NCBI GenBank assembly: GCA_035578155.1
Contig: JAPWDM010000047.1
Coordinates: 1,674,001 to 1,738,000 of the forward strand
From: Brachynemurus nebulosus
Taxonomy: Eukaryota; Arthropoda; Insecta; Neuroptera; Myrmeleontidae
Direction: 5' to 3'
DNA: 64,000 nt
Positions 1 to 46,610 of this stretch are shown in pieces. The first letter of the stretch is position 1, and every line of letters begins with the position of its first letter. The notes below the pieces were generated by a model that had not been told where the DNA came from, searched no databases, and saw only the letters and a program-made list of their open reading frames with translations. Position numbers and translations under genes: made by a program.

Positions 1-74
1 ATACCCTAACCCAAGGGGTGGCCGCTAAATTTTGTGGGGGCACTGTACCAAGCGCTAGCCGCAATCATGACTTC

Positions 75-115
75 AGACTCCAGATTCCAGACTCCAGATT
101 CCAGACTCCAGATTT
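75..115. repeat. 14-bp sub-terminal tandem repeat
   Basis: About three copies of a 14-bp unit (CAGACTCCAGATTC) near the outer end of the left arm, mirrored at 8978-9018 in the right arm. Short sub-terminal direct repeats of this kind are common binding sites for transposition or replication proteins, but no such role is shown here. Confidence 0.8.
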
Positions 116-1530
116 CTGACCGCTACTGTACTGCCGGAAATTTGGGTGTCAATTGTACTTGATGTTTTTTTTGTATATGAGTCAGCACTTTATAAGATGT
201 TTATTTAATAAAAACTCGTGACTTTATATGGTTTGAGTTTGTTTATTTAAGATTTTTTTAGCTGACTTAGGATGATGTAATTTCATGATATGTTTGCATC
301 ATAGCCAGAGGGGAATTTTATTTAAAAGCAAGTCACAACTTGTCAGTTCCAGGAATTTGTTTACATTAATGTCATCGTAAATCATTAATTTTATTATGTT
401 TATTTAAGATTTTGCTGACTCATACTTAGATATTTTTTTAGTTTGTTTATTTATATAAGTTTTAGTTTAAAAAATGTTTATTTAAGATTTTGACAACACA
501 GCAATTTCTTTGTTTGATTTCAAATACGAAATAGTTTTCTCGGAATTTTTAATTTATGGCCTAATAATAATCGGGGGTTTTTTCAATTTGTTTATATAAG
601 TTTTAATTTTTGTTTATTTAAAATTAGTCAGCAATTCTTTTATTAGGTTTCAAATGCGAAATAAATTTCTCGGAATTTGACATTTGACCTTCAGTTATTT
701 GCGTTGTAAAAATTCTGAGTCAGCATTATGGTGCACAACATTTTTGAATTTGACTGTAGCACAAAACTGTTTCTATATCAAACGAAAATTATCTGAAATA
801 ATTCAGTATGTACATATGTATAGACTCTGTATATTAAAAATATTTTATGTATACACTCTGTATATTGAGAATAAGAAAGAAAATTTGTATATAATTTTAA
901 TTTTTATGAATACTAGTAAATGAATTATATAGCCATTTATGAATAAGTATTAAATCTAATTATAAAATAATTTATAAATATTGCAAAAAATTTGTTTAAT
1001 CAGCAAAATCAATGTATATCATTTTAATACTGATACATATTTATATTAGGGTATAATGGTATTGTATTTAACATTTTTAAACAGAATAAAAGTTAAATTT
1101 TTGGTTTTAAATTACTATAAGTTAAACACGTCGCTTAATATAAAAATGATAACAGCATTGAGTTTTACTAAATTTTTAAGTCTGTAAAATCAAAATTTTT
1201 TATAGACTAGAACATTTTGAATTTGCTACTTTATCATTAACATACAAATAATATCATGTATATATAACGGGTGTATATTTAGTATTTTTAATAAATATTT
1301 TAGTATACAGGGTGTATCATGAAATATGCTTTTCAATTAGAATAATAAATTTCATAAGATTTTTGTTAATACTCTTATAGGTTAACGAAAGAAACTTTTT
1401 GCTGTAAAAAATAGGGGAATGCAGGGTAATAATTAAATAAAACGCACATATTTTTTTTTTTTTTTAAATTTTATTTATAGAATATGTATACAAAAAATTA
1501 AATTGCTTAAATCTATATATTACTTAAAAT

Positions 1531-2016
1531 CTATTTATTTTCCGTATAAAAATTTTTTAAAAGAATACAATTTTCTAATGAACAAATTTTATCTGAATGA
1601 AGCATACAGCGTCTTGAATAATATTCATCTCGCAGAATGGAAATCTTCGGTACATCAAATATTTCTTCCAAATTCAAAATCCACGGCTGGTTTTCGGTAC
1701 CATCAAACAAACTTGATATCCATTTCTTCTTTTCACCACCCTTGACGTATATAACATCATACTTCTTTAATATAGGTTTCAATATGGTATGAAGTTTTTT
1801 GTATGGAATAAATCCATACGACCAAGGTATCCCATGCCAATTTCGGTAAAGCCAACTGGCTACTCGTTGATATTTCTTCGGCAACTCGTTGAAATCAAAC
1901 GGTGCGTCGAATATAAGATGTAATATATCATCCGAATTTTCTGCAGCAATACCAACTTCTTTAAAATAAAATTCGTTGTTAGCTCCTTGATAGCCTTGTA
2001 TGTCAAGAAACGCCAT
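1531..2016 (-). CDS. 161-aa protein, possible RNase-H-fold exonuclease-like (left-arm copy)
   Basis: A complete 161-codon ORF starting at an ATG, identical in protein sequence to the right-arm copy at 7080-7565. Visible features are an N-terminal FLDIQGY strand, a following FKEVGIA segment, an FDAPFDFNEL acidic segment, a central HGIPWSYGF segment and an IYVKGGEKK segment. The acidic residues at the end of predicted strands recall DEDD-type nuclease folds, and I recall similar short proteins in insect virus-like elements, but no motif is diagnostic. The C-terminus (after about residue 130) is Cys/Leu-rich. There is no signal peptide or membrane segment. Preservation of an intact frame in both arms suggests either function or recent conversion. 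Function remains unproven. Confidence 0.6.
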   Translation of the reverse strand: MAFLDIQGYQGANNEFYFKEVGIAAENSDDILHLIFDAPFDFNELPKKYQRVASWLYRNWHGIPWSYGFIPYKKLHTILKPILKKYDVIYVKGGEKKKWISSLFDGTENQPWILNLEEIFDVPKISILRDEYYSRRCMLHSDKICSLENCILLKNFYTENK

Positions 2017-2179
2017 TTTTTACTGCCACCGTAGAACTGAATTTATTCACACAATCCACAACTTTATATAGAATAATTAAAAGTGGTGGGGGTAGTTAGT
2101 TAATTTGTGGAACGTATTCGAAAATGGCTATTAATAGCTATTGCTAGTTTACCATCAAATTACAAACTGTTAATAATAT

Positions 2180-2356
2180 TTAGCCCATTTGTGAGTACCA
2201 GGTTCTTTTCACTTTAAGACCTAGTGATTTAAGGAATGCTAAATTTTCAGGTGAAATATGTTGTTGCTCAAAAGTTTTACGTTTAATGATCTTAGGTTTC
2301 GAAAGTCCTTTGCTAGGTTCTCTAGCGGTGGACTGCGCTGAATTGTAAATTAACAT
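2180..2356 (-). CDS. 58-aa basic protein of unknown function (left-arm copy)
   Basis: An ATG-started 58-codon ORF, mirrored exactly at 6740-6916. The frame continues upstream only to a GTG-led extension of nine codons, so the internal ATG is preferred. The protein is Lys-rich, with a basic KPKIIKRK stretch in the middle and a C-terminal FLKSLGLKVKR segment; it has no Cys and no membrane segment. It might be a small nucleic-acid-binding or packaging protein, but this is only a guess from composition. Confidence 0.5.
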   Translation of the reverse strand: MLIYNSAQSTAREPSKGLSKPKIIKRKTFEQQHISPENLAFLKSLGLKVKRTWYSQMG

Positions 2357-2547
2357 GGTTCCAAAATGTAATTGTTTTACCACGAAAGTATAATTTTCAA
2401 CGAAAGAGATGTTAACTCTTTGACAACCACCGGCAAATAGATAATATTTTATGTAAGTTCAACTATTTTATACCCTTCAACCATGATAAGGTGTATAAGC
2501 TGGAGTATAACTCAGCAAATTATATAGCGGTGGTGACGTAACACACA

Positions 2548-2760
2548 AATGCGGTGGTTGTGTTGCGGTTGTGGCGGTGGCGGTGTTTGTGTGGCGGTTG
2601 TGTGGTGGTGGCGGTGGTGTTTGTGTGGCGGTGACGGTGGTGTTTATGTGGTGGCGGCGGTGGTGTTTGTGTGGCGGTGGTATTTGTATGGTGGTTCCGG
2701 TGGTTGTGTGGTGGTTGTGGGGGTGGCGGGGTAGCAGCGGTGTTTGCGGCTGGCGTGCAC
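2548..2760 (+). repeat. GTG/GGC-rich microsatellite tract (left arm)
   Basis: Strongly strand-asymmetric tract of interrupted GTGGCGGTG and TGGTGG units, the most GC-rich stretch of the arm. The mirrored tract at 6382-6547 is shorter, so this is where the two arms diverge most in length. Long open frames here are low-complexity artefacts (Thr/Pro/His or Gly/Val repeats). Confidence 0.9.
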
Positions 2761-3027
2761 AACTTTATCATTAATTCAATCGAAGCAGCAATTTACTGTA
2801 GACAATAAATCGGTGGTGACATCTCGGCGGTGTTTGTTGAACGCAATATCTAAATTAATCAATCTGGTGACGTTCCTATTCCCTGCTCTTATAATGGAAG
2901 ATTATTAAATATCGATTTTAGATAAAATATTGGAAAATTTCGGTTACAAAATACTATAAATACAACTGAATTATTAACCGGATGTCATTTGTTGGTTAAG
3001 TTCCAGAAGGTAAACAACAACAGCAAC

Positions 3028-3216
3028 ATGCCGATTTGTGGTATTTGTAAATTTCAACCGTCACAGTGTAAGTGTGCCTTCTACGAGTACTGTGATAGGT
3101 GCCGAAATGAAAAACGAATTTGCATGTGTTGTAAACGATGTATGATGCCATTTCCAAACTGTGTTTGCAATTATATAAACTGTACCACATGTACAAGCCG
3201 CTGTAATTGCAAATAA
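3028..3216 (+). CDS. 62-aa cysteine-rich protein (left-arm copy)
   Basis: From the ATG at 3028 the product is 62 residues, very Cys-rich, arranged as CxxC, CxC, CxxC, CxCC and CxxC clusters with an FPNCVC segment. The upstream frame has only a TTG start. A TATA-like ACTATAAATAC about 75 bases upstream is conserved between copies. Three copies exist in the element (also 5926-6114 and 5459-5647, both minus); the copies differ at residues between the cysteines while the cysteines stay, which argues for coding constraint. It looks like a small zinc-binding protein. The antisense frame is also open and forms the C-terminal part of the 346-aa ORF. Confidence 0.6.
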   Translation: MPICGICKFQPSQCKCAFYEYCDRCRNEKRICMCCKRCMMPFPNCVCNYINCTTCTSRCNCK

Positions 3217-4101
3217 TTTAGTAAAATCAATCATCTGATTGCCACATAATACATATTGACCAATAGCATCTTCTTTATCAGTTTCATCCAGATAATCACC
3301 TAGTGGCTCAATAACATCAGCCTTTTGAAGTTCACGAAGTATAGAGAATATTTCTTGACCTACAGTAGTTTCTCTTAAAGCATCTAACTCTTCGATTAAA
3401 GCTTCACTATCGTCAACGTTAAACAATATGTTTTTATTTTCCTCTTTACTCCGAATAATATTGAGTATTTTTTCACCAGTCTCTGAAGTCTCGTATAAAC
3501 GTCGTAATTCATCTATTAAAGTATTAGGATTATGCCAGTATTTTATTTTTTTCGATTGCCCATTAGCATTTTCCGAGTCGTTGTATTTGATACGCTTAGC
3601 AAGTAGCTCTTGGTCCGTTGAATTGACTGGACGTTTTATTGCTATTCGTTCATTAGAATCCTCACCTTTATTTTGAGTTTCTTTGATTAATAAAATATCC
3701 AAAAGGGTTTGCAAAGCTGTAGTTAACTTGGGAATGATAACAGTTCCACTATCAGAAGTGGTTAAAACCCTGTTATTAGACTCATCGCTGGGTGTGTAAA
3801 CATTATTTTGATTTCTTAAATTATTAAATTTAGTTTGAATTGCTTTTGACGCAGCTTTAATTCTTTGTTCAAGTGGATTGACCCTTTCTTCAACTTTATT
3901 GTTTGGAAATTCATCGTCAACATCATTCCTCCCGGTATCATAACTAGATAAGTCATCAGCCGTGTCTAATGTTTGTCTTTTTAGCGGATCAAAAGAGTAA
4001 CTATTTTCAAACCTTTTTGGTGAAGATTCCCGCATATATGTATTTCTTATATGACGTGAAAGAGAATCTTTCCGTGAGAAGCTTTTATAACACTCGAACA
4101 T
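3061..4101 (-). CDS. 346-aa ORF with degenerate C2H2-like N-terminus and repeated Leu-rich segments
   Basis: Starts at the ATG at 4101. Residues 2-20 read like the second half of a C2H2 zinc finger (KSFSRKDSLSRH), but the first Cys lies outside the ORF and the last His is Tyr, so the finger is incomplete. Residues of roughly 190-270 contain two tandem, related segments of the form LI(D/E)EL..L followed by an IL/II helix. The middle is acidic and Ser/Asn-rich. The last 67 or so residues are antisense to the 62-aa Cys-rich gene and may be fortuitous. The element arm boundary falls inside the ORF at about 3265, so its C-terminus has been drawn from the duplicated arm. Possibly a DNA-binding or structural protein; unassigned. 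Confidence 0.55.
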   Translation of the reverse strand: MFECYKSFSRKDSLSRHIRNTYMRESSPKRFENSYSFDPLKRQTLDTADDLSSYDTGRNDVDDEFPNNKVEERVNPLEQRIKAASKAIQTKFNNLRNQNNVYTPSDESNNRVLTTSDSGTVIIPKLTTALQTLLDILLIKETQNKGEDSNERIAIKRPVNSTDQELLAKRIKYNDSENANGQSKKIKYWHNPNTLIDELRRLYETSETGEKILNIIRSKEENKNILFNVDDSEALIEELDALRETTVGQEIFSILRELQKADVIEPLGDYLDETDKEDAIGQYVLCGNQMIDFTKLFAITAACTCGTVYIIANTVWKWHHTSFTTHANSFFISAPITVLVEGTLTL

Positions 4102-4160
4102 TATAATAGATGTGTAAAGCTCAACTAGTCTTACAAGATTAATTCAGAATTGTGTTAGCG

Positions 4161-4238
4161 ATTACTTATATACTCCACCACCATCACCACCACCACCACC
4201 GCCACCACCACCGCCATCACCACCACCACCACCGCCAC
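4161..4238. repeat. CCA/CCG microsatellite
   Basis: Interrupted (CCA)n with CCG and CAT variants in the spacer just upstream of the 346-aa ORF start, similar in composition to the tracts in the arms. A second pure (CCA)n lies at 5081-5104. Confidence 0.9.
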
Positions 4239-4647
4239 ATCTGAGTTGCTCATTTTACTCCATGGAGTAGCGGTTGACATTCAGCTTACACATTTTGCCT
4301 CCATTACGCTCTTTCGATTCGGAAATCAGTTTAAAAAAATGAATGAAAAGCTATATACAAGTGTCAGGTGACTCAACACCAACAGTAACATACTTGCTCC
4401 CGAATATAGGCAATTACATTGCATTGCCAAGTGGCCCCATACCTACTGAGAGTCTTATCATAATTCAAGATATAATTTGGGAGGTTCTAGTGTGTTGTAA
4501 AATAAGAACAATATAAGAATTTATACGTAAAATAATTTATTTTTTAATGAAATATACGTTTACAATATTAAAATTAAAAAGCAAATCAATTCATTTTCAT
4601 ATCTGACAGTTACCTTAATCTTACATCTAATATCATACATGTGATAG

Positions 4648-5010
4648 CTATTTACTAAATTCGACAATATGTAAAAAACCACTAGAATCAGTTCCTTTAT
4701 ATGTAATAAAATATTGTCCTGTACGTAAACATTGAATGGTCTGCTCATCCAAATCCGCGAATCGTTTTGGAAGGAACACTTGAGCATCTGCAAGTTCCAC
4801 CGCAACCGCTGGCCCATATCGAGTTTCCATGCGTCGTACATCAAGAATTTTCCACGTTTCATACGGTTTGAGTGTAGATAGCGATTTGAATGGTTTACCA
4901 GCACCAAGTTTATTCAACTTCTCCAAAACCGGATCCATTGTTGTATCAGTGGCAGTAAAAGTGGTCCACAGATCACTTATACTTAACTCAACACCGTGTT
5001 GTTCAGACAT
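4648..5010 (-). CDS. 120-aa single-copy protein, possible OB-fold ssDNA-binding protein
   Basis: Complete ORF with ATG at 5010 and stop at 4648, present once, in the unique centre. Residues 40-120 show alternating strand-like segments: a WKILDVRRME strand, a RYGPAVAVEL strand, then a conserved-looking VFLPKRFADL segment and a final YFITYKG strand. Spacing and the basic/aromatic pattern suit a small OB-fold protein, and I recall similar short proteins in insect virus-like elements; this is inference from pattern, not a database match. No signal peptide or membrane segment. Paired with the nuclease-like 161-aa protein it would form a plausible replication or recombination pair. Confidence 0.55.
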   Translation of the reverse strand: MSEQHGVELSISDLWTTFTATDTTMDPVLEKLNKLGAGKPFKSLSTLKPYETWKILDVRRMETRYGPAVAVELADAQVFLPKRFADLDEQTIQCLRTGQYFITYKGTDSSGFLHIVEFSK

Positions 5011-5248
5011 TTTGCCAATACACTGCCAATTTCTGTTACAGCACGTCGCTTAAATAAATTATGAGTTGCAACCACAAAAACCACCACCACCACCACCACC
5101 ACCCCAACACAACTACAAAATTTTAGTTGCTCATTTTACCCCACCGATATGTTTATTCCCACACAGCTACAAATTAAGTTACTCTAAAGCAACCACACCT
5201 TCATATGATCAGTGTTTATACACCACAACCAATGGAAAATATCAAATA

Positions 5249-5421
5249 AACATTAACATTTATTTAGTAATGAGGTATAATGTATATTTTGAGTATTCAA
5301 CAAAAACTTTAATACTGATTAATAGGTATTGGTCAATTCCACTGTTACTCAAAATATACGTTATACCTCATTACTAAATAAATGCTAATGTTTGTTTTAA
5401 CAACCGTGGAATTGGTCAATA
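5249..5421. repeat. Central hairpin of the palindromic element
   Basis: The stretch 5249-5297 is repeated as a near-perfect reverse complement at 5345-5396 (both include the motif CTCATTACTAAATAAAT or its complement). A second inverted pair, GTATTGGTCAATTCCAC near 5325 and GTGGAATTGGTCAATAC near 5405, is interleaved with it. A diverged version of the same module lies at 5777-5885. Such hairpins could be replication or recombination structures. Confidence 0.8.
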
Positions 5422-5458
5422 CTTATGAAGTGGCAATCAGGTGATTGATTTTACTAAA

Positions 5459-5647
5459 TTATTCGCAATTGCAGCGGCTTTTACATGTGGGACAGTTTAC
5501 ATAATTGCAAACACAGTTTGGAAATGGCATCATACATCGTTTACAACACATGCAAATTCGTTTTTCGTTTCGACACCTATCACAATACTCGGGGAAGGAA
5601 CACTTACACTGTGGTGGTTGAAATTTACAAATACCACAAATCGGCAT
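5459..5647 (-). CDS. 62-aa cysteine-rich protein (third, diverged copy)
   Basis: Third copy of the Cys-rich gene, lying just inside the right arm together with about 300 bases of its flanks (about 5420-5760). It has the same length and all cysteines, with substitutions such as SQ to PQ and YEYC to PEYC. The duplication predates arm homogenisation because this copy is visibly more diverged than the two arm copies are from each other. Confidence 0.6.
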   Translation of the reverse strand: MPICGICKFQPPQCKCSFPEYCDRCRNEKRICMCCKRCMMPFPNCVCNYVNCPTCKSRCNCE

Positions 5648-5925
5648 GTTGTTTTTGTTTACTTTCTGGAACTTAACCAACAAATGACATCCGGTTAATA
5701 ATTCAGTTGTATTTATAGTATTTTGACTGAAACCAAATAATCCAATATTTTATAAAAAATCGATATTTAATCGATATTGACCAATTCCACTGTTACACAA
5801 AATATCCATTATGCCTCATTACATCGTTGGTCATTGCGTTATAAATAAATGTTTACGTTGGTTTGAGCAACCGTGAAATTGGTCAATATGTATTATGTGG
5901 CAATCAGATGATTGATTTTACTAAA

Positions 5926-6114
5926 TTATTTGCAATTACAGCGGCTTGTACATGTGGTACAGTTTATATAATTGCAAACACAGTTTGGAAATGGCATCAT
6001 ACATCGTTTACAACACATGCAAATTCGTTTTTCATTTCGACACCTATCACAGTACTCGTAGAAGGCACACTTACACTGTGACGGTTGAAATTTACAAATA
6101 CCACAAATCGGCAT
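5926..6114 (-). CDS. 62-aa cysteine-rich protein (right-arm copy)
   Basis: Mirror of 3028-3216 with an identical protein. A TATA-like element (CTATAAATAC on the minus strand, about 6180-6190) and an adjacent AACTGAATT segment lie upstream and are conserved in all three copies. Confidence 0.6.
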   Translation of the reverse strand: MPICGICKFQPSQCKCAFYEYCDRCRNEKRICMCCKRCMMPFPNCVCNYINCTTCTSRCNCK

Positions 6115-6381
6115 GTTGCTGTTGTTGTTTACCTTCTGGAACTTAACCAACAAATGACATCCGGTTAATAATTCAGTTGTATTTATAGTATTTTGTAACC
6201 GAAATTTTCCAATATTTTATCTAAAATCGATATTTAATAATCTTCCATTATAAGAGCAGGGAATAGGAACGTCACCAGATTGATTAATTTAGATATTGCG
6301 TTCAACAAACACCGCCGAGATGTCACCACCGATTTATTGTCTACAGTAAATTGCTGCTTCGATTGAATTAATGATAAAGTT

Positions 6382-6547
6382 GTGCACGCCAGCCGCAAAC
6401 ACCGCTGCTACCCCGCCACCCCCACAACCACCACACAACCACCGGAACCACCATACAAATACCACCGCCACACAAACACCACCGCCACCACCACACAACC
6501 GCCACACAAACACCGCCACCGCCACAACCGCAACACAACCACCGCAT
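6382..6547. repeat. CAC/CCG-rich microsatellite tract (right arm)
   Basis: Reverse complement of the GTG-rich tract at 2548-2760 but several tens of bases shorter, accounting for most of the length difference between the arms. Confidence 0.9.
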
Positions 6548-6739
6548 TTGTGTGTTACGTCACCACCGCTATATAATTTGCTGAGTTATACTCCAGCTTA
6601 TACACCTTATCATGGTTGAAGGGTATAAAATAGTTGAACTTACATAAAATATTATCTATTTGCCGGTGGTTGTCAAAGAGTTAACATCTCTTTCGTTGAA
6701 AATTATACTTTCGTGGTAAAACAATTACATTTTGGAACC

Positions 6740-6916
6740 ATGTTAATTTACAATTCAGCGCAGTCCACCGCTAGAGAACCTAGCAAAGGACTTTCGAAAC
6801 CTAAGATCATTAAACGTAAAACTTTTGAGCAACAACATATTTCACCTGAAAATTTAGCATTCCTTAAATCACTAGGTCTTAAAGTGAAAAGAACCTGGTA
6901 CTCACAAATGGGCTAA
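6740..6916 (+). CDS. 58-aa basic protein of unknown function (right-arm copy)
   Basis: Mirror of 2180-2356 with an identical protein. A TATA-like GGGTATAAAATAG at about 6620-6632 lies 110 bases upstream, consistent with its own RNA polymerase II promoter. A 160-base spacer separates it from the 161-aa gene on the same strand. Confidence 0.5.
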   Translation: MLIYNSAQSTAREPSKGLSKPKIIKRKTFEQQHISPENLAFLKSLGLKVKRTWYSQMG

Positions 6917-7025
6917 ATATTATTAACAGTTTGTAATTTGATGGTAAACTAGCAATAGCTATTAATAGCCATTTTCGAATACGTTCCACAAATTAACTAA
7001 CTACCCCCACCACTTTTAATTATTC

Positions 7026-7061
7026 TATATAAAGTTGTGGATTGTGTGAATAAATTCAGTT
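7026..7061 (+). promoter_or_regulatory. TATA box plus initiator-like core promoter of the 161-aa gene
   Basis: TATATAAAG at 7027-7035 is followed about 30 bases downstream by TCAGTT, which fits the arthropod initiator consensus, and then 20 bases later by the ATG at 7080. The same arrangement is mirrored in the left arm. This spacing is the expected one for a TATA/Inr promoter. Confidence 0.6.
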
Positions 7062-7079
7062 CTACGGTGGCAGTAAAAA

Positions 7080-7565
7080 ATGGCGTTTCTTGACATACAA
7101 GGCTATCAAGGAGCTAACAACGAATTTTATTTTAAAGAAGTTGGTATTGCTGCAGAAAATTCGGATGATATATTACATCTTATATTCGACGCACCGTTTG
7201 ATTTCAACGAGTTGCCGAAGAAATATCAACGAGTAGCCAGTTGGCTTTACCGAAATTGGCATGGGATACCTTGGTCGTATGGATTTATTCCATACAAAAA
7301 ACTTCATACCATATTGAAACCTATATTAAAGAAGTATGATGTTATATACGTCAAGGGTGGTGAAAAGAAGAAATGGATATCAAGTTTGTTTGATGGTACC
7401 GAAAACCAGCCGTGGATTTTGAATTTGGAAGAAATATTTGATGTACCGAAGATTTCCATTCTGCGAGATGAATATTATTCAAGACGCTGTATGCTTCATT
7501 CAGATAAAATTTGTTCATTAGAAAATTGTATTCTTTTAAAAAATTTTTATACGGAAAATAAATAG
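7080..7565 (+). CDS. 161-aa protein, possible RNase-H-fold exonuclease-like (right-arm copy)
   Basis: Mirror of 1531-2016 with an identical protein. The ATG at 7080 follows a TATA/initiator pair at the expected distance and an AAAAATGG context. Just after the stop (about 60 bases) an AATAAA at about 7620 could serve as polyadenylation signal. Two identical copies in opposite arms would be divergently placed, each transcribed outward from the centre. Confidence 0.6.
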   Translation: MAFLDIQGYQGANNEFYFKEVGIAAENSDDILHLIFDAPFDFNELPKKYQRVASWLYRNWHGIPWSYGFIPYKKLHTILKPILKKYDVIYVKGGEKKKWISSLFDGTENQPWILNLEEIFDVPKISILRDEYYSRRCMLHSDKICSLENCILLKNFYTENK

Positions 7566-9081
7566 ATTTTAAGTAATATATAGATTTAAGCAATTTAATT
7601 TTTTGTATACATATTCTATAAATAAAATTTAAAAAAAAAAAATATGTGCGTTTTATTTAATTATTACCCTGCATTCCCCTATTTTTTACAGCAAAAAGTT
7701 TCTTTCGTTAACCTATAAGAGTATTAACAAAAATCTTATGAAATTTATTATTCTAATTGAAAAGCATATTTCATGATACACCCTGTATACTAAAATATTT
7801 ATTAAAAATACTAAATATACACCCGTTATATATACATGATATTATTTGTATGTTAATGATAAAGTAGCAAATTCAAAATGTTCTAGTCTATAAAAAATTT
7901 TGATTTTACAGACTTAAAAATTTAGTAAAACTCAATGCTGTTATCATTTTTATATTAAGCGACGTGTTTAACTTATAGTAATTTAAAACCAAAAATTGAA
8001 CTTTTATTCTGTTTAAAAATGTTAAATACAATACCATTATACCCTAATATAAATATGTATCAGTATTAAAATGATATACATTGATTTTGCTGATTAAACA
8101 AATTTTTTGCAATATTTATAAATTATTTTATAATTAGATTTAATACTTATTCATAAATGGCTATATAATTCATTTACTAGTATTCATAAAAATTAAAATT
8201 ATATACAAATTTTCTTTCTTATTCTCAATATACAGAGTGTATACATAAAATATTTTTAATATACAGAGTCTATACATATGTACATACTGAATTATTTCAG
8301 ATAATTTTCGTTTGATATAGAAACAGTTTTGTGCTACAGTCAAATTCAAAAATGTTGTGCACCATAATGCTGACTCAGAATTTTTACAACGCAAATAACC
8401 GAAGGTCAAATGTCAAATTCCGAGAAATTTATTTCGCATTTGAAACCTAATAAAAGAATTGCTGACTAATTTTAAATAAACAAAAATTAAAACTTATATA
8501 AACAAATTGAAAAAACCCCCGATTATTATTAGGCCATAAATTAAAAATTCCGAGAAAACTATTTCGTATTTGAAATCAAACAAAGAAATTGCTGTGTTGT
8601 CAAAATCTTAAATAAACATTTTTTAAACTAAAACTTATATAAATAAACAAACTAAAAAAATATCTGAGTATGAGTCAGCAAAATCTTAAATAAACATAAT
8701 AAAATTAATGATTTACGATGACATTAATGTAAACAAATTCCTGGAACTGACAAGTTGTGACTTGCTTTTAAATAAAATTCCCCTCTGGCTATGATGCAAA
8801 CATATCATGAAATTACATCATCCTAAGTCAGCTAAAAAAATCTTAAATAAACAAACTCAAACCATATAAAGTCACGAGTTTTTATTAAATAAACATCTTA
8901 TAAAGTGCTGACTCATATACAAAAAAAACATCAAGTACAATTGACACCCAAATTTCCGGCAGTACAGTAGCGGTCAGAAATCTGGAGTCTGGAATCTGGA
9001 GTCTGGAATCTGGAGTCTGAAGTCATGATTGCGGCTAGCGCTTGGTACAGTGCCCCCACAAAATTTAGCGGCCACCCCTTG

Positions 9082-9540
9082 GGTTAGGGTATTCCCTACA
9101 TTTTTGACTTGGTAGTTCGTTTAAAATGACGCAATTAAGGTAAGCGCGTATTGGGGTTAAGGTTTGCACGTACAGTACGCTTCAAAAAGTGATCGGATAC
9201 CTTTTTGGTCAGGGGGGCCCGCACTTTTGACACGGCAGTGAACTAAAAATTTAAGTATAGTACGGCGTCAAAAGTTTGGGGCCACTCCTGGGTTAGGGTA
9301 TTCCCCACATTTTTTGACGTGATAGTTCGTTTAAGATGACGTAATTAAGGCAAGCGCGTGTTGGGGTCAAGGTTTGCACGTACAGTACGCTTCAAAAAGT
9401 GATCGAATACCTTTTTGGCCAGGGGTGTCCACACTTTTGACACGGTAGTGTACCAAAAATTTAAGTACAGCACGGTGTCAAAAGTTTGGGGCCACCTCCG
9501 AGTTAGGGTAACCCCACATTTTTGACGCGGTAGTGTACCC
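9082..9540 (+). repeat. 209-bp tandem repeat next to the palindrome
   Basis: The motif GTTAGGGTA starts units near 9082, 9291 and 9501, giving a 209-210 bp period over about 2.2 units. Each unit holds a TTTTTGAC(N)GGTAGT-like motif and a GTTTGCACGTACAGTACGC motif. The first unit overlaps the outer end of the right arm, so the array probably belongs to the element's terminus. Confidence 0.85.
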
Positions 9541-9561
9541 CTTCTATCAAATTGTAACCTA

Positions 9562-9612
9562 AAATTCAGTCTGCGCATGCGTCGTGTACTTAAATTCAGT
9601 CTGCGCATGCGT
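9562..9612. repeat. Two direct 21-bp repeats containing TGCGCATGCG
   Basis: The 21-bp repeat occurs at 9562-9582 and 9592-9612, exactly 30 bases apart. The core TGCGCATGCG matches the palindromic site of NRF-1/Ewg-family factors. It is CpG-containing in an AT-rich setting. Regulatory use is speculative. Confidence 0.6.
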
Positions 9613-9869
9613 TAGGTTTGCATTCAAAAACTATGGCGGGTAATAACTAAATTGTGGTGACGCATAATGGGTTAACATAAATTAATTTCGTTGCTGGTGA
9701 TGACTCATGTGTTTGGAATTTCAAGGCCAACAGTAAGAGCGAGTGTTGTGGTCAAATGTCAACAACAAATTTTAAATACATGTACTCAGTACGTGCCGGG
9801 TCAAAGGTTAAGGTTTGCACATCGATACAGTTTGATGACTCATCAGTTAGGAATGTCTAGTACCGTAAA

Positions 9870-10185
9870 GTTACACGATTTCAAACATTGGCAAAAGGGT
9901 TCAAGTTGCTTAGTTTTGCGGTGCTCCAGCTCTGTCATAGCCTATCTACTGGCGTACGCTATAACGATTCATAAAAGTCAAGGTTTAAGTCTGGATAGTG
10001 CCCTTTTAGATATTGGCTCATCAATATTCGCATGTGCTCAGGCATAGGTTGCACTATCCAGAGTAAGACATCTCCAAGGTGTTCACTTAATAAATTTTGA
10101 CCCGAGTCAGATTAAAGCACAATAAAGTGCAATAGCAGAGTACAATAGGCTTAGATCTTTGTATCGAAGAGATTTAAACAAAATT
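9870..10185 (+). pseudogene. PIF1-type DNA helicase, C-terminal fragment, decayed
   Basis: The frame through 9691-10047 and beyond encodes the C-terminal helicase motifs: an AITIHKSQGLSLDSALLD segment at about 9958-10011, then DIGSSIFAC, an in-frame TAG at 10045-10047, VALSRVR, an INFDPSQIKA segment, a second stop, and EYNRLR. These are motifs V and VI of the PIF1/RecD-like family found in insect Helitrons and stand-alone PIF1 genes. The N-terminal ATPase part (Walker A and B) is not recognisable upstream, so this is a truncated and nonsense-mutated relic. Confidence 0.8.
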
Positions 10186-10425: not shown

Positions 10426-10869
10426 ATCCCACCAAAAACATAAATGTGAAAAATGGGCAAGTTCTAATATGTATTGTGTTAGCCTGAAAAAGAATTGAAA
10501 TCAAAATAAACTGTCAAGTTCCAAACATATTTTTCGTGCAAAATCGGAATAAGATAAATTGTTTTAAAAAATATACATCAAGCTTTTTTAAGGTAAATAA
10601 TAGAAATTTTTCATTAGAACTTGGGGAGTTTTTAACACCAAGTAATACATGATAAATGAATAAAAACTCGCCATGTTCTAATGAAAAATTTCTATTATTT
10701 ACCTTAAAAAAGTTTGATGTATATTTTTTAAAACAATTTATCTTATTCCGATTTTGCACGAAAAATATGTTTGGAACTTGACAGTTTATTTTGATTTCAA
10801 TTCTTTTTCAGGCTAACACAATACATATTAGAACTTGCCCATTTTTCACATTTATGTTTTTGGTGGGAT
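10426..10869. mobile_element. 444-bp foldback (palindromic) element
   Basis: Positions 10426-10634 and 10661-10869 are reverse complements with few mismatches (coordinates sum to 21295), separated by a 26-bp loop. No ORF of interest. No clear target duplication flanks it, so its superfamily is undetermined. It lies about 240 bases downstream of the helicase relic. Confidence 0.85.
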
Positions 10870-14171: not shown

Positions 14172-17100
14172 ATGGATCATAATAATGAACTAAGCATTAT
14201 TCAATGGAATATAAACGGCTACTACCGAAGACTCGAAGACATTAAACTAATATTGCATCAAATAAATCCAATAGTCTTCTGTGTACAAGAAACCCATCTA
14301 ACTGAAAAAAATCACCCCAAAATCAAAAACTACAAAATGTATCGTAAAGATCGACAACAGACACAACAAGCCAGTGGCGGGACAGCAATTTTTATAAAAG
14401 ACAATATCTACTCGGAAAAATTAACAATACAAACCAATTTAGAAGCAGTAGCAGCCAAAATACACACCCCAGAACAAATCACAATATGCAATATTTATCT
14501 ACCGCCAAACATCAACATCGAAATAGAAGAGCTATATGACTTAATGCAACAATTACCAACACCGATAATACTAGTAGGTGATTTCAATGGCCACAACACA
14601 ATATGGGGATCCCATCACACGAATTTTCGAGGCCGAAAAATTAAAAAATTTATAATGGACACCAACCTAGTTCTACTAAATGACTGCAACAAACCTACAC
14701 ACATTACAGCTAGCACAGGCGGATTTTCAAATATAGACCTGTCACTGTGCACACCACAACTAACCACAACGATAACATGGGACACACTGAACTATACATA
14801 CAGCTCTGATCACATACCAATCATCATAAAAATAAAAAATACTACCTACCAACAAACACCAACAGCAGTTAGATGGAAACTAAAAACAGCCAACTGGGAA
14901 AAATTTAAAACAATGACAGACATGACTTCCCCACTAAATCCAAACTCGGATCAAACAATTGATGAAACGGTAACAAAACTAACTAATCATCTGATAAACG
15001 CAGCCGTACAATCAATAGAAAGAACAAAACCCACAATCCATAGACCTCCCGTGTATTGGTGGAACGAACAATGCCAAAAAACGATCAAAGAAAGTAAAAG
15101 AGCATACAATAAATACAAGAAACATAGAACGCTAGAAAATCTCATAAACTTTAAAAAATTGAGGGCATTAGCAAAAAAGACAATCAAAACCAGCAAAAAA
15201 GAATCTTGGCAAGAATACATCGGAAAAATGACCAACAATACCACAACAAACGAAATTTGGACAAAACTAAAGAACATAAAGGGAGAAAAAAGAACATTTA
15301 GCATTCCGGCCTTAATCAAATATACAGAAATAATTACTGAGAAAACTAAAATAACAAACATCCTAGCAGAAACAATCATACACAACTCCTCTGACGAAAA
15401 CTATGATAAAACCTTCCTACAAAAACGACAGCAAACCAACCAACCAGACCCAAACCAACAGACACAAATACAACCACCAAACAACACATTAAACGTACCA
15501 ATAGGGGAAACGGAATACTTACAAGCACTCTCTAGCACAAGAAACACCAGTCCTGGTCCTGATTCCATACCGTACATATTCCTACAGAACATGTCCAATA
15601 ATGCAAAAATCTCCCTTTTAAACATATACAACCATATATTCAAAACAGGAAAGTACCCAGAACAATGGCTAGAAACAATAATATTACCAATCCTCAAACC
15701 AGAAAAAGATCCGACAGACCCAAACAGCTACCGACCTATAACATTAATCTGCACTATGGCCAAACTATTAGAAAAAATAATTAACAAACGACTCCAGTGG
15801 TTTTTGGAAGTAAACCAACTCATATCACCTACACAAACTGGATTCAGACAAGACAGATCAACAATAGACGCATTAACCAACTTAACAACAAATATACAGG
15901 ACGCTATGAATCATAAACAACACTTGATTGCAATCTTCTTTGATATTGAAAAAGCCTTTGACATGACATACAGACCTTTAATCACAGAAAAACTGACAAA
16001 ATGGAATATAACTGGTCCTATGTACCTTTTTATTGAAAATTTTCTATCAAAACGATCGTTTAAAGTTTACGCCAACAACACATACTCTGCCACCAAAAAA
16101 ACAACCAACGGCATTCCACAAGGCTCACCTTTAAGTGTAACATTGTTCTTAATAGCCATCAACGACGTGACTAACTCAATCAAAAAACCAGTCAAAACAT
16201 GCATGTTCGCAGACGACCTGGTAGTATTCTGTAGAGGAAACGAACTTAAAAATACCCAAAAAATACTACAAAGAAACGTTAATTCTTTGCAAAACTGGAG
16301 CAACAGCACAGGTTTCAAACTCTCACTACAAAAAACGAAAGCCATTCTATTTACAAGATCAAAAACACAGACAAATCCACCCGAAATAATACTTAACAAC
16401 CACCTAATTACGTTCGTAGAAAAAATAAAATATTTAGGATTAATAATCGACAAAAAATTAAACTGGAAAGATCACATCGACAACGTCAAGACCAGAACAA
16501 CAAAATATTTAAACTTAATCAAAACAATAAATCATTACGAATGGGGCGCAGACCAACAAACACTTCTCAAAATATACCGAACCCTAATAAGAACAAAAAT
16601 AGACTATGGTTCAATCATCTACGCATCGGCAAAATCAACAACATTAAAGAAACTAGACGTAATACAGAACACAGGAATAAGATTACCATTAAACGCATTT
16701 CGTACCACACAAATAGATAGTCTACTGTGTGAAGCCGGTGAAATACCACTGAGTATGCGCTAACATTAAAAATATGGTGTCAAAGTCCTATCTAATCCTA
16801 ATAATCTCAACTACCAATATATAATAAAACCACAACCAGAAAACCATTCAACCCTCAGTAAAAGATTTCACCAAATACCAAACAAAATTGGACTGAATAC
16901 TAACAACATACTTCCGCTAACCACTCACAAAATTCCACCCTGGCAACTAATTATTCCTTGCATCAATACTGAATTAACATCACTGGATAAAACAACCACA
17001 AACCCCAAAACGTACCAAACAATATTTAATAGTATAATAAGCGAATACGAAAATCACATCCAAATTTATACCGATGCATCCAAAACAGAAGAAGGACTTA

Positions 17101-24636: not shown

Positions 24637-24895
24637 TTCGGATTGTTGTAAGCATTGTTACCGGTATTGGTGATATCGTGAGTTGTGGAATTGACGGTTT
24701 CTCAAGGAAACAATTCAATCTTAACGGCATATTAAGAATTGTGGTACACTTTGGTCAGCAGTGCGTGGATTTCAATCCTTCAATCAACAACGGATCTACG
24801 AGGAATGGAAATTTACTGGAGCATTCTGTAAGTAGAGTAAATTGCATATTTTTCGCTGCTTATATATTTTTTGTTCCTGCTTTTTCCTTTTTCGT

Positions 24896-26323
24896 ATGTC
24901 TTTCATCGTAAAATCAGAATTGTTTAAATTATCACACAGACCATATCCTAGATCGAAAATCCCTCAACTAAACGGCGCAGAAAACGCAATAGTTGAGTCA
25001 AACGTGAGCATATCGGAGGATACGATAAGCAACGTTAATTTAGATTTAATTAGTAATAGTAATATTGAAACAGTTCAATCAAATAATTTAAATACAAATA
25101 CAAATAATTCAATTAGTTTAGAAAGTTTAGATTTTAACAAATATTATAATAATACAAAAATGCAAGTAAACGAAAATGCAGTTAGTGGCTTCTCACAAGT
25201 GCTCGAAGCATTTAGAATACCGGATCCAATTAAATTCCTACCTGAATTTAATGGAAATCCGAGAACACTGCATGATTTTATTGAAAATGTAGATGAAATC
25301 ATAGCATGTGTAAGTGTCGATTGGACACAGGGATACGGTAAATTGTGGATACGGGCTATCCGTAATAAAATCGTAGGAGAGGCTAACGAAATTTTAAACA
25401 TGTACGGTACTCCGACAGATTGGCAATCAATCAAAGCAAATCTAATTTCACATTATGCAGACAAACGAAACGAGACAAACTTAATTAGGGAACTTTATAG
25501 TCTAAAACAAAATCAAAATCAGAAAATGGAAGAATTTTATGCGAAAGTTATCGAAATACTTTCTTCATTAGTTAACTTCACTAAATTAAACGAAAATGAT
25601 TCCATTGCAATAAATTCTAAATTACAATTATTTAAAAATTTGGCAAAAGATGTATTTTTAGCTGGACTTAGAGAACCTATTGGATCAGTCGTACGTGCAC
25701 GAAACCCAGACACAATTCAAAACGCATTTGAATACGCTATCAAAGAGCAAAATATTCACTACCATCAAAAATCATATCAACAAATTACAGTTAAACCTCC
25801 AATATCCGCACCTGTACCGATTAGAACACACAATTTTCATAATCCTCTACAATACCAAAAACAGTTTACCACACATACACCGTTTAACACACAAAATAAT
25901 ATTCAACAAACGCGACCATTTTATACACAAAATAATAATCAACAATTTCGACAATTCAACACACAAAATAATACAAAACAGTTACCGCGACCAACACCTA
26001 TGGACTTAGGCAGTAATAGGTTAAGCATTAGACAACCTAACACACAACAGCAACAATCACGCCCTAATTTTCAACAACAACAACAACAACAACCATTTAG
26101 ACGTAATATTTTCCAACCCCAAAGTAGACCGACTTTTGCTTCAAACGAACTTTTTAACACAGAAGCATCAGGATTTAGTTCATTAGACGAATACGTAGTT
26201 GACGAAAATTATGACGAAAACAGTTATTTGGTAGACGAATACGAACAGACAGACCAAAATAATCAAAACGAGATCGATGATCAAAATTTTCGGTTAATCT
26301 CGGACAACAATTTGGATACATAG
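24896..26323 (+). CDS. gag: Errantivirus Gag polyprotein
   Basis: From the first ATG at 24896 the product is 475 aa. Residues of about 90-290 form a helical capsid-like region with the retrotransposon-gag pattern (FLPEFNGNPRTLHDFI, IRAIRNKIVGEANE, LKQNQNQKMEEFYAKV). The C-terminal third is low-complexity Gln/Asn/Pro/Arg with TMAT-like PTPMDL and no CCHC knuckle, as is usual in this group. The last 43 nucleotides overlap pol in the -1 frame. The 270 bases between the primer site and the ATG are the untranslated leader. Confidence 0.92.
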   Translation: MSFIVKSELFKLSHRPYPRSKIPQLNGAENAIVESNVSISEDTISNVNLDLISNSNIETVQSNNLNTNTNNSISLESLDFNKYYNNTKMQVNENAVSGFSQVLEAFRIPDPIKFLPEFNGNPRTLHDFIENVDEIIACVSVDWTQGYGKLWIRAIRNKIVGEANEILNMYGTPTDWQSIKANLISHYADKRNETNLIRELYSLKQNQNQKMEEFYAKVIEILSSLVNFTKLNENDSIAINSKLQLFKNLAKDVFLAGLREPIGSVVRARNPDTIQNAFEYAIKEQNIHYHQKSYQQITVKPPISAPVPIRTHNFHNPLQYQKQFTTHTPFNTQNNIQQTRPFYTQNNNQQFRQFNTQNNTKQLPRPTPMDLGSNRLSIRQPNTQQQQSRPNFQQQQQQQPFRRNIFQPQSRPTFASNELFNTEASGFSSLDEYVVDENYDENSYLVDEYEQTDQNNQNEIDDQNFRLISDNNLDT

Positions 26324-29300
26324 ATTTAAATCTTCATGAATCTACTTTACCCTATATACATATTACTGACCAAAAAGACTGTACACCCTTAAAATTTTTA
26401 ATTGACACTGGTTCTTCAAATTCTTTCCTTAATCCTGAATTAGTTCATCCAGACCTTACAACTGAAATTAAACCTACCACTATTAAATCACTTTTAGGAT
26501 CATATAATGTTACAAAAAAGGCAAAATTACCCATTTTTAGTGAGTTCAATCAAACTGGTACAATAGATTTTCTTCTTTTACGATTTCACGGTTATTTTGA
26601 CGGACTTATTGGACTTGACATACTTAATCAACTTCAAGCTCAAATTGATATTCCCGGTAAACGATTAATAACACCATTTTCTACAAATAGATTGTTGTTC
26701 AAACCCAACATCACAAGTGGCATACACATAATTGAACCAAATTGTAAACAATTAGTCAAAATTCCAACAGACGTACAATCAGGCGACGTATTAGTACATG
26801 ACATAAAAATTCAAAATAAATTTTCGATTCCTTCTGGCGTATACAATGTTAAAGATTGGCATATTCTCGCACCTGTTTTAAATCACACAAACAGTGCACA
26901 AAAATTTTTAATCGAACAGCCACTGAAAGTAGAAATTTTAAATCACGAAATTATTGACTGTAACTTTAACCAATTTCAAACTGATAACGACACGGAATTA
27001 CCCCCGATCGAATCTCTTATTAGGACCGAACATTTAAATAGCGAAGAAAGACAAGCTTTGTTTAAACTTTGTCGTAAATATGAGGATGTTTTTTATAAAG
27101 AGGGTCAAGATCTTTCATTTACGAATAAAATTAAACATGAAATAAAAACCACTGACGATCTACCCGTTTATACCAAATCCTATCGGTATCCTTATATTCA
27201 TAAGGAAGAGGTTAAGAAGCAAATTGATAAGATGCTCCATCAAGGCATCATAAGACCAAGCTATTCTCCTTGGAGTAGTCCAATTTGGATAGTTCCTAAA
27301 AAACTAGACCAAAGCGGAGTACGAAAATGGCGATTAGTGGTGGACTATAGGAAACTTAACGAAAAAACTATAGGGGATAAATATCCAATCCCAAACATCA
27401 CAGATATACTAGACAAACTTGGTAAATGCATGTATTTCACTACTCTAGACTTAGCATCTGGTTTCCATCAGATAGAAGTTCATCCTAGGGACATTGAGAA
27501 AACTGCTTTTACTGTAGACCATGGACATTTCGAACATGTTCGCATGCCATTTGGACTAAAAAACGCTCCATCAACTTTCCAAAGAGTTATGGATAACGTT
27601 CTAAAAGATCTACAAGGTACAATTTGTCTTGTATACATGGATGATATAATTATCTTTTCCACTTCGCTTCAAGAACATATTATTAATCTCGATAAAGTTT
27701 TTAGCAGACTAAAAGACGCAAATTTAAAAATTCAATTAGATAAAAGCGAATTTCTAAAACGGGAAGTAGCTTTTCTGGGACACATAGTATCAGAAGCAGG
27801 TGTAAAACCTAATCCTGATAAAGTAGCTGCTATTAGGAAATTCCCTGTACCAAAAACACAAAAAGATATTAAATCTTTTCTGGGACTTCTTGGATACTAC
27901 AGGAAATTTATTAAAGACTTCGCTAGGTTAACAAAACCAATGACTAAATGTTTGAAGAAAGGTGAAACAGTTAAACATACACCTGAGTTCCTTAAATGTT
28001 TCGAAACATGTAAGGACCTCTTGACAAACGACCCAATCCTTGCCTATCCAGACTTTAACAAAGAATTTATTTTGACAACGGACGCAAGCAATGTAGCAAT
28101 CGGAGCAGTCCTTTCCCAAGGACCTATTGGTAAAGATAACCCAATATGTTACGCTTCTAGGACCTTAACCGACTCAGAATCGCATTACTCTACCATAGAA
28201 AAAGAACTTTTATCGATCGTATGGGCAACCAAATATTTCAGGCCTTACTTATACGGACGAAAATTTACCATAATTACTGACCATCAACCACTCAGATGGC
28301 TCATGTCACTTAAAGAACCAAACAGTAAATTAGTAAGATGGCGACTTAAACTTGAAGAATTTGACTACAAAATTATACACAAACCAGGTCGACAAAATAC
28401 TAACGCAGACGCCCTCTCACGAATTATAATTGACAGTAACCCCCATACTAATGACGATTCTACGCAAGACACTTCTACACAAGACACTTCTACACAAACA
28501 GTACATAGTGCATCAGAGGATGATACCTCCTTAATTAGAATCTCGGAAAACCCCCTTAATGATTTTAAAAATCAATTAATCATATTAAAAGATGAAAACA
28601 TTCAAACTGCAACTAAACGCAAATTCCAAATTCTTTTTAATACACGTCGACGTATTACAATTACACTTTCTGCTGACGACGACGATATTTTAATCTCAGT
28701 TATAAAAGAAAACATTCCACCGAAGGTAACTTTAGCTATATACTGTCCTGATGACGAATTATTTATTAAAATTCAAAGAATATATTCTGATTATTTCTCT
28801 CAAGGTAAACAGTACAAAATTATTCGAGCAACTAAACTATTAGAAGACGTTTTAGAAGATGACCAACAAGACGAATTAATAAAAAAGTATCATGACTTTA
28901 GACATACAGGAATTAACGAAACTTTTAACCATATTAGAAGAGAACATTACTTTCCAAATTTAAAATCAAAAATTTCTTATTATGTTAATAATTGTAAACT
29001 GTGTAACGAAAATAAATATGACAGACGACCACCAAAACAAAATTTTGAATTAACAGAAACACCGTCACAGCCACTCGAAATTGTACACATTGATATATTT
29101 TATTTGGACAAATTAATATATTTAACAATTGTAGATAAATTTTCACGTTTTGGCCAAGCATACCCAATCGAAACAAGAAATACATCCCATATCCTTGAGG
29201 CTCTAGCACAATACATATCCCAATACGGTAGTCCTAAAAATATTGTAGTCGATTCAGAAAAAGGATTTGACTCAATACGTTTTCGACAATTTTGTGACAC

Positions 29301-29931
29301 GTATAGTATTAATATACACATAACAGCTGTTAGAAGTTCAACATCAAATTCTCCTGTAGAGAGATTCCATTCTTCTATCCTTGAAAAATATCGTATCACA
29401 CATGCAACTGATAAAAGCAGCTCAGCTGATTTAAAAATGCTACATACAGTTTTTGTTTACAATAATTCAATTCATACCGCGATTAAATGTACACCATATG
29501 AATTATTTTTCGGACGTAAATATGACATTAAATTAACTGCCGATCCAGCAATAGTACAACAAGAACGCGAAAAATTTCAACGTGAATCTTATCAGAACCA
29601 AATTCAACAAAAAGAAAACAAAATTAATACTCTAAATAGTAATCGCGAATCCCCAATTGATTATAAAGAAAAACAAACTACATATTTTCAGGAAAATAAA
29701 CATAATTCCAAATTACACCCAAAATTTAAACAAATTACAGTAAAAACTAATAATAAGGTAACGGTAACAGACGACAAAAATCGTAAAATCCCAAAACAAA
29801 AATTAAGACGACCTTTGTTACAGGGCAATATTAACAATAATGACAACGGTGACGACACAGAAAATCGAGATACGCGACCTAACGAACAACCCGGGACTAG
29901 TGGCTATAGAACTAGGACAAGCCAAACTTAA
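26281..29931 (+). CDS. pol: Errantivirus Pol: protease, reverse transcriptase, RNase H, integrase
   Basis: The frame opens after TGA at 26278 and overlaps gag; it lies in the -1 frame, so it is expected to be made by ribosomal frameshifting. Protease with DTGSSNSF at about 26401; RT with YMDD at 27633-27644 and the VPKK and DLASGFHQ segments; RNase H with TTDAS at about 28076 and TDHQPLRW; integrase with an HHCC zinc region (28889-29005) and a DDE core whose aspartates lie in HIDIF and VVDSEKGF and glutamate in SPVERFHS. No chromodomain. The C-terminal tail is basic and overlaps the env start by 92 nucleotides. All catalytic motifs are present. Confidence 0.95.
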   Translation, partial: SKFSVNLGQQFGYIDLNLHESTLPYIHITDQKDCTPLKFLIDTGSSNSFLNPELVHPDLTTEIKPTTIKSLLGSYNVTKKAKLPIFSEFNQTGTIDFLLLRFHGYFDGLIGLDILNQLQAQIDIPGKRLITPFSTNRLLFKPNITSGIHIIEPNCKQLVKIPTDVQSGDVLVHDIKIQNKFSIPSGVYNVKDWHILAPVLNHTNSAQKFLIEQPLKVEILNHEIIDCNFNQFQTDNDTELPPIESLIRTEHLNSEERQALFKLCRKYEDVFYKEGQDLSFTNKIKHEIKTTDDLPVYTKSYRYPYIHKEEVKKQIDKMLHQGIIRPSYSPWSSPIWIVPKKLDQSGVRKWRLVVDYRKLNEKTIGDKYPIPNITDILDKLGKCMYFTTLDLASGFHQIEVHPRDIEKTAFTVDHGHFEHVRMPFGLKNAPSTFQRVMDNVLKDLQGTICLVYMDDIIIFSTSLQEHIINLDKVFSRLKDANLKIQLDKSEFLKREVAFLGHIVSEAGVKPNPDKVAAIRKFPVPKTQKDIKSFLGLLGYYRKFIKDFARLTKPMTKCLKKGETVKHTPEFLKCFETCKDLLTNDPILAYPDFNKEFILTTDASNVAIGAVLSQGPIGKDNPICYASRTLTDSESHYSTIEKELLSIVWATKYFRPYLYGRKFTIITDHQPLRWLMSLKEPNSKLVRWRLKLEEFDYKIIHKPGRQNTNADALSRIIIDSNPHTNDDSTQDTSTQDTSTQTVHSASEDDTSLIRISENPLNDFKNQLIILKDENIQTATKRKFQILFNTRRRITITLSADDDDILISVIKENIPPKVTLAIYCPDDELFIKIQRIYSDYFSQGKQYKIIRATKLLEDVLEDDQQDELIKKYHDFRHTGINETFNHIRREHYFPNLKSKISYYVNNCKLCNENKYDRRPPKQNFELTETPSQPLEIVHIDIFYLDKLIYLTIVDKFSRFGQAYPIETRNTSHILEALAQYISQYGSPKNIVVDSEKGFDSIRFRQFCDTYSINIHITAVRSSTSNSPVERFHSSILEKYRITHATDKSSSADLKMLHTVFVYNNSIHTAIKCTPYELFFGRKYDIKLTADPAIVQQEREKFQRESYQNQIQQKENKINTLNSNRESPIDYKEKQTTYFQENKHNSKLHPKFKQITVKTNNKVTVTDDKNRKIPKQKLRRPLLQGNINNNDNGDDTENRDTRPNEQPGTSGYRTRTSQT
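26284..26290 (+). promoter_or_regulatory. -1 ribosomal frameshift slippery site
   Basis: A AAT TTT in the gag frame is a canonical X XXY YYZ heptamer, located inside the 43-base gag-pol overlap, four bases after the pol frame opens. It is the only such heptamer I find in the overlap. Confidence 0.8.
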
Positions 29932-46360: not shown

Positions 46361-46380
46361 TAATTAGTTAGTATTCTAAA

Positions 46381-46592
46381 ATAGTAAGTGTAATCATAAT
46401 CTTAGGAAGATCTTAAGAATATTTACAGCGTAGTAAGCGGATGAATATTTAAAAATTTTTTTTAAACAGAAATAGGCAGGTTTATTACGTACGTAATAAA
46501 CGTATTTCGACGCGTTAAATCAAAATTTAAAGTCTCTTTAGCTTCATCAGGCCAAAAAATTTGGTTCGTAACACAAACATGGATATCAATTA
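46381..46592 (+). repeat. 212-bp direct repeat (upstream copy) flanking the USP fragment
   Basis: Matches 47200-47411 over the same 212 bases with about 10 percent differences. Includes ATAGTAAGTGTAATCATAAT and a TTTAAAGTCTCTTTAGCTTC segment. Too short and lacking TG...CA ends for a standard LTR. Confidence 0.85.
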
Positions 46593-46610
46593 TACTAAAG
46601 CATATTATAA

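Follow-up and report, generated by a model that had tools for sequence, protein, structure and literature searches.

A palindromic element of Brachynemurus nebulosus that is probably a gene-bearing satellite of Polinton/Maverick elements

We analysed a stretch of 64,000 nucleotides (the window) from the genome of the neuropteran insect Brachynemurus nebulosus (assembly GCA_035578155.1, contig JAPWDM010000047.1, positions 1,674,001 to 1,738,000), which begins inside a palindromic element with kilobase-long inverted arms. This element is probably a non-autonomous, gene-bearing satellite of Polinton/Maverick elements that is mobilised in trans. It ends in the same 19-base motif as 16.5-kb elements that carry a capsid gene, and no polymerase or capsid gene was found among its own open reading frames (ORFs); it is therefore probably their genetic parasite. 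By its genes, the element is not a Polinton itself, with no PolB, integrase, or capsid found in it, but it is most likely mobilised as one.

Ends, target sites, and arms

Mapping of the ends places the element at C93:1673143-1683950 (10,808 bp). Its right end is at window position 9950, and its left 858 bp (C93:1673143-1674000) lie outside the window and mirror window positions 9093-9950 at 99.8% identity. The body within the window (1..9950, no strand assigned) was also delimited by aligning arms and copies. A first-pass annotation, made from the window's letters, had described a 9-kb palindromic element at 1..9092. The long inverted arms were correctly seen, but position 9092 is where the window's edge cuts the mirror image. 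That annotation had proposed a satellite or virophage-like replicon or a terminal fragment of a larger virus-like element, which was near the mark given the motif shared with the 16.5-kb capsid elements. A terminal fragment we discarded in view of the element's two ends and its target duplication.

Both ends open with AGTAGATAGGCTA. The terminal motif of the right end (pattern AGTAGATAGGCTANGANAG; 9932..9950, minus strand), found by end mapping and a genome-wide pattern search, is followed by the 6-bp target duplication GGCGTA (9951..9956, plus strand), whose second copy is at C93:1673137-1673142. The target continues on the plus strand (9951..10100). When the flanks are joined and one copy of GGCGTA is removed by eye, they read REQFPLCLAYAITIHKSQGLSLDSALLDIGSSIFACAQA (...AYAITIHKSQG...), which we take to be a remnant of a PIF1-type helicase; Pfam matched this target to UvrD_C_2 alone (E 0.0033).

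Other genomic copies with complete ends and target duplications, which the first-pass annotation had named as informative, do exist. Ten copies were sampled with both flanks, and both ends were recognised in four of them. All four have 6-bp duplications (GGCGTA, ATTATT, CACTAA, and TGAATT), as is expected of a Polinton/Maverick, and the three complete copies besides the window's are 9,810, 10,034, and 11,253 bp long. Duplications of 6 bp are described as typical of rve integrases (PMC12220804).

The arms of the window copy are about 3.5 kb each and 99.8% identical. Self-comparison resolved them into two inverted blocks of 100% identity (1-1462/7631-9092 and 1454-2633/6463-7642) and a third, of about 640 bp, at 97-98.6% (2608-3264/5878-6534). 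Thus the left arm (1..3264, plus strand) is near-identical to the right arm (5878..9950, minus strand; also mapped end to end) up to 2633 and continues with the third block. Tandem repeats of 210 bp lie near the arm ends (9059..9534, no strand assigned; self-comparison and tandem-repeat scan). In nine of ten other aligned copies (the exception is L018), the left arm ends at about 2861 and the sequence picks up at 3264. Judging from this alignment, the left arm of the window copy has gained a duplicate of about 400 bp from the right side and, with it, an extra cysteine-rich gene.

Four copies were mapped end to end, with arms of 3.5-4.2 kb that are 99.5-99.9% alike. In each of them, an arm carries one gene for a 161-aa protein and one for a 58-aa protein, both pointing outward, and the centre carries a C2H2 gene, a 120-aa gene (absent from the C41 copy), and two tandem cysteine-rich genes, all on the same strand. 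Misassembly of the window locus does not account for the second arm: both arms were visible over the test stretch in 15 of 21 stretches, and in the other six the second arm leaves the sampled range (five stretches) or is shortened (L038). Arms differ by an average of 0.64% within copies (15 comparisons) versus 1.30% between copies (615 comparisons). We propose that arms stay alike because each new satellite copy would be made with matching ends. The arms of the ten aligned copies are about 98-99% alike, and by this likeness the family has spread recently. Separately, a subterminal pair of ACGCATGCGCAGACTGAATTT repeats is strongly conserved across 16 aligned element ends (e.g., L009:9481-9531). 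The core of these repeats presumably resembles NRF-1 sites, and they are possibly a site for a host factor or a replication protein.

Larger elements with the same ends

Across the 960-Mb genome, the 19-base pattern AGTAGATAGGCTANGANAG, with up to one mismatch, occurs 1,144 times (563+581), versus 0+0 occurrences for the reversed pattern, which excludes a chance origin of the motif. We listed the first 100 motif places (C1:0.9-100 Mb), which form 40 converging pairs and leave 20 unpaired termini. Three pairs are 3.9-4.2 kb, 31 are 7.1-12.0 kb, and six are 16.2-16.7 kb; together, the 40 pairs span 0.43% of the first 100 Mb of C1.

Some of the largest pairs carry genes of a different kind. The double-jelly-roll capsid family DJR-like_dom (PF21738) matched 126 places in the genome (the best 126 of 1,648 candidates; E about 1e-121), mostly as stop-free open frames of 399 aa. 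Another recurrent gene is an ORF of about 1,170 aa, whose commonest open frames are 1,167-1,177 aa, the others being shorter (best 150 of 920 candidates). On C1:0-100 Mb, pairs enclose two of 20 listed capsid genes (both in pairs of 16.5 kb) and five of the 28 large-ORF tails listed. Another three capsid genes and four tails lie inward of an unpaired terminus, at most 17 kb from it. The 120-aa gene is in pairs in 10 of 26 listed cases, none of them in a 16-kb pair, and near an unpaired terminus in two more (a further 120-aa gene, at C1:100058457, lies 5 kb to the inner side of the final terminus in the list and is excluded from these counts).

Among the matches listed, two of the six large pairs have a capsid gene and an ORF tail, one has the tail alone (C1:76328379), and three have neither; the large elements include C1:48232936-48249472 and C1:69596427-69613051. 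The capsid gene is 7.5-8.5 kb from the ORF tail in 11 of 20 cases. By arithmetic, four pairs have the start of the large ORF about 2.1 kb inside one end; in the two large pairs that hold both genes, the capsid gene is 2.5-2.7 kb away from the other end. Also by arithmetic, two 11-kb pairs with an ORF tail have no room for a capsid gene at the usual spacing. We take the layout of the two-gene 16.5-kb pairs to be of Polinton type. The large ORF is probably PolB, judging by its size and position and by its 77-aa tail, which we take to resemble the C-terminus of Polinton PolB. Other genes for protein-primed PolB, of family PF03175, are abundant, with 193 matches in the genome (for the C1:0-100 Mb listing, the best 75 of 1,288 candidates were scored). 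Many of them have open frames near 1,400 aa (e.g., C41:1613154-1614722), and this second family apparently belongs to a different Polinton lineage.

One locus links the two kinds of element. L041, a piece of 4.5 kb, comes from the central part of the 16.5-kb element C1:76328379-76344861. It contains a tail of the large ORF, a 182-aa ORF, a C2H2 gene that has diverged from the element's (30% amino acid identity, with 90% DNA identity in the 3' part), and a broken 161-aa gene within an arm that is 91% identical to the window arm. This element is outside the capsid matches listed, and the frame of its own ORF tail spans only 173 aa; we read it as an older helper-satellite hybrid. It shows that the large ORF and satellite genes can lie between the same ends. 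Neither the 77-aa nor the 182-aa ORF of L041 has relatives in IMG/VR, and the 182-aa ORF has none in the protein databases either.

Genes and proteins of the element

The genes were placed from the ORF list and, except where stated, by comparison of copies. In the window, the 161-aa gene is at 1531..2016 (minus strand) and 7080..7565 (plus strand), and the gene for the basic 58-aa protein is at 2180..2356 (minus strand, from an internal ATG) and 6740..6916 (plus strand). The 120-aa gene is at 4648..5010, the C2H2 ORF at 3061..4101, and the tandem 62-aa cysteine-rich genes at 5459..5647 (in repeat D1, at 91%) and 5926..6114, all on the minus strand. Stretches that look like TATA promoters were spotted by eye upstream of genes.

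The first-pass annotation rightly gave both arms small genes. The cysteine-rich gene of the window's left arm (3028..3216, plus strand; end-to-end mapping) is in the 400-bp extension that nine of ten other copies lack. This third gene is present in two of the four mapped copies (the window and C58). The unique centre does hold a 120-aa and a 346-aa ORF in the window, but the latter length is abnormal: over 23 copies, the C2H2 ORF is 288 aa in 20, 292 aa in one, truncated (143 aa) in one, and 346 aa in the window. The difference arises because of the left-arm extension and the loss of three finger residues: the finger is complete in five other copies' sequences that we compared, and the last 67 or so residues of the window's ORF run antisense to the cysteine-rich gene. 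By this comparison, the 346-aa ORF is peculiar to the window copy and the element's normal protein is 288 aa. The gene set is complete in three of the four mapped copies.

Among full-length matches, the 161-aa frame is open in 42 of 42 and the 120-aa frame in 19 of 20; these counts exclude partial matches (one 161-aa, three 120-aa, and two cysteine-rich). Genome-wide, the best 150 of 1,671 candidate matches to the 120-aa protein were scored, and 148 of them have no stop. The 58-aa gene stops a few residues short in at least 5 of 42 copies, and the cysteine-rich gene is broken in at least 2 of 40. Inverted pairs of 120-aa genes about 1 kb apart were also seen (C106:25914278/25915791, C17:6190314/6191647, and C58:23744804/23746076); these are perhaps copies whose palindrome expanded into the centre.

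We computed ratios of nonsynonymous to synonymous polymorphism (pN/pS) from distinct variants among copies, with small synonymous counts (3 to 14). The ratio is 0.35 for the 161-aa gene, 0.39 for the 120-aa gene, and 0.42 for the cysteine-rich genes (two tandem copies pooled), versus 0.80 for the 58-aa gene and 0.78 for the 288-aa gene. For two non-coding controls, the ratio was 1.15 and 0.67; the second value, from 13 copies and 13 variants, is below those of the 58- and 288-aa genes. Polymorphism among copies thus supports purifying selection on three of the five genes and not on the 58- and 288-aa genes.

Neither the 161-aa nor the 120-aa protein has relatives among 5.8 billion proteins or in IMG/VR, and the best E values in a sequence search of PDB were 0.76 and 0.24, respectively. 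Of the five element ORFs scanned with Pfam, the 161-, 67-, and 74-aa ORFs matched nothing, the 346-aa ORF matched three C2H2 models below threshold (best E 0.0033), and the 120-aa ORF had one weak match (E 0.21). The sole match in PHROGs was a family of unknown function for the 346-aa ORF (E 0.092), and Rfam had no match within the window. AlphaFold models made without an alignment were poor, with predicted local distance difference test scores of 41.6 (161 aa) and 52.9 (120 aa). The description of the 161-aa protein as nuclease-like thus found no support: the protein matched no Pfam or PHROGs family, had no homologue, and had no confident model. For the 120-aa protein, which had been called similar to the oligonucleotide-binding (OB) fold, Foldseek placed cholera-toxin-like B-subunits and an archaeal single-stranded DNA-binding (SSB) protein, which we take to be OB folds, in the top ten, with nothing at E ≤ 0.001. 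An OB fold and a role in binding single-stranded DNA are possible.

In agreement with the first-pass annotation, we found no transposase among the element's ORFs (ORF list and Pfam scan of five ORFs). We also found no protein-primed PolB or rve integrase: the longest ORF is 346 aa, and the five scanned ORFs had no Pfam match to either. No capsid, ATPase, or protease gene, as in virophages and polinton-like viruses, was found among the ORFs listed, and no C93 locus is among the listed double-jelly-roll capsid matches.

Alternatives and implications

With Polintons/Mavericks, the element shares long terminal inverted repeats (TIRs), 6-bp target duplications, and the terminal motif of the 16.5-kb capsid-bearing elements, but it is about 10 kb, its arms of 3.5-4.2 kb carry genes, and we found neither a polymerase nor an integrase nor a capsid in it. 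Mavericks that encode PolB, INT, ATP, PRO, and capsid have been described from insects (PMC5803895). In the open-licence literature, we found no non-autonomous, miniature, or derivative Polinton/Maverick under such names, nor this element. We propose that the integrase and polymerase of the larger elements act on the ends common to both: their retroviral-type integrase would insert the satellite, yielding the 6-bp duplications, and their protein-primed DNA polymerase would copy it from its ends. Its own proteins (the 120-aa possible single-stranded DNA-binding protein, the C2H2 protein, the cysteine-rich protein, and the 161-aa protein) may aid it in competing for replication or may control the helper. 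The C2H2 and possible-OB-fold proteins probably bind DNA and help to use or restrain the helper.

Several results weigh against the satellite reading. Among the ten copies with both flanks, one end is recognisable in three and neither in three, and the C41 copy, although complete, lacks the 120-aa gene. Most of the listed genes are outside the pairs, counting those near unpaired termini: 23 of 28 for the ORF tail, 18 of 20 for the capsid gene, and 16 of 26 for the 120-aa gene. Pfam finds no PolB match in the 77-aa tail of the large ORF, and the sole PF03175 locus among the matches listed on C1:0-100 Mb (33.66 Mb; 75 of 1,288 candidates scored) is in no pair. No integrase was seen in the 16.5-kb elements, though no search was aimed at one. 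The likeness of the TIRs to those of capsid-bearing pairs rests on the 19-base motif (up to one mismatch), and the 161-aa gene starts about 2.4 kb from the end versus about 2.1 kb for the large ORF in same-motif elements, which means that the two kinds of element have only part of their arms in common.

The element might instead be a passive deletion derivative of a Polinton, mobilised in trans like a miniature inverted-repeat transposable element, whose ORFs are functionless leftovers that hitchhike. The 58- and 288-aa genes, with pN/pS ratios above one of the non-coding controls, would suit this, as would the 58-aa copies that end early, the complete copy without a 120-aa gene, and the three same-motif pairs of 3.9-4.2 kb. 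However, leftovers would not be expected to keep the 161- and 120-aa frames open in nearly every match scored or to have ratios of 0.35-0.42 in three genes, and we consider this explanation rather unlikely. A true viral satellite, packaged into helper capsids and moving between cells as virophages do, is similarly doubtful. The element has its own gene set and a large family, and two of the six large same-motif pairs have intact 399-aa capsid ORFs; but nothing points to particles, to packaging, or to horizontal transfer, and the 161- and 120-aa proteins have no relatives in IMG/VR. Like virophages and polinton-like viruses, it has a small gene set and may depend on a larger DNA element, but it has no capsid gene that we found and resides in an animal genome rather than a protist's.

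Least probable, and by some distance, is a Foldback-like or other cut-and-paste transposon with an undetected source of transposase that captured its terminal likeness to the capsid elements. Kilobase-long TIRs with internal tandem repeats, which are features of Foldback and Galileo elements, are present. However, those elements make target duplications longer than the 6 bp seen here, the reversed-pattern control excludes chance sharing of the motif, and the element has conserved small genes and no transposase among its ORFs. The first-pass annotation had treated the genes' conservation as a set and under selection as decisive for its reading, and this was borne out in part: one mapped copy lacks a gene, and selection is not supported for two of the five genes.

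Elsewhere in the window, at 44457-49278, a 161-bp tandem repeat forms two arrays in inverted orientation, of about 10 and 7 copies, around a centre of about 1.5 kb; by its layout, this is another long-TIR element, and a 140-aa ORF in its centre has a weak likeness to ubiquitin carboxyl-terminal hydrolases (Pfam UCH, E 0.042). Pfam domains also identify a gypsy-type retroelement at 24842-31453, with gag, pol, and an envelope matching the Gypsy and Baculo_F families (a combination that suits an insect host), and a non-LTR (lacking long terminal repeats) retroelement at 14172-16763, with endonuclease and reverse transcriptase domains. Two inverted stretches of 209 bp that match near-perfectly, 26 bp apart, lie at 10426-10869.

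Packaging of the element's DNA is a conjecture. We hold only tentatively the fuller idea of a satellite with a conserved five-gene set and hundreds of copies that a capsid-bearing Polinton replicates, integrates, and packages in trans. If true, it would be an animal counterpart of the hyperparasitism of virophages on giant viruses. To our knowledge, whether animal Polintons form particles is an open question; if copies of the element were found encapsidated, that question would be answered, and the element would be a satellite parasite of a Polinton. As a young and abundant element that lacks the Polinton machinery but keeps its own genes and the ends, it would lend itself to reporting on the activity of the helper, and it may give a functional lead for protein families that have no detectable relatives in the libraries searched.

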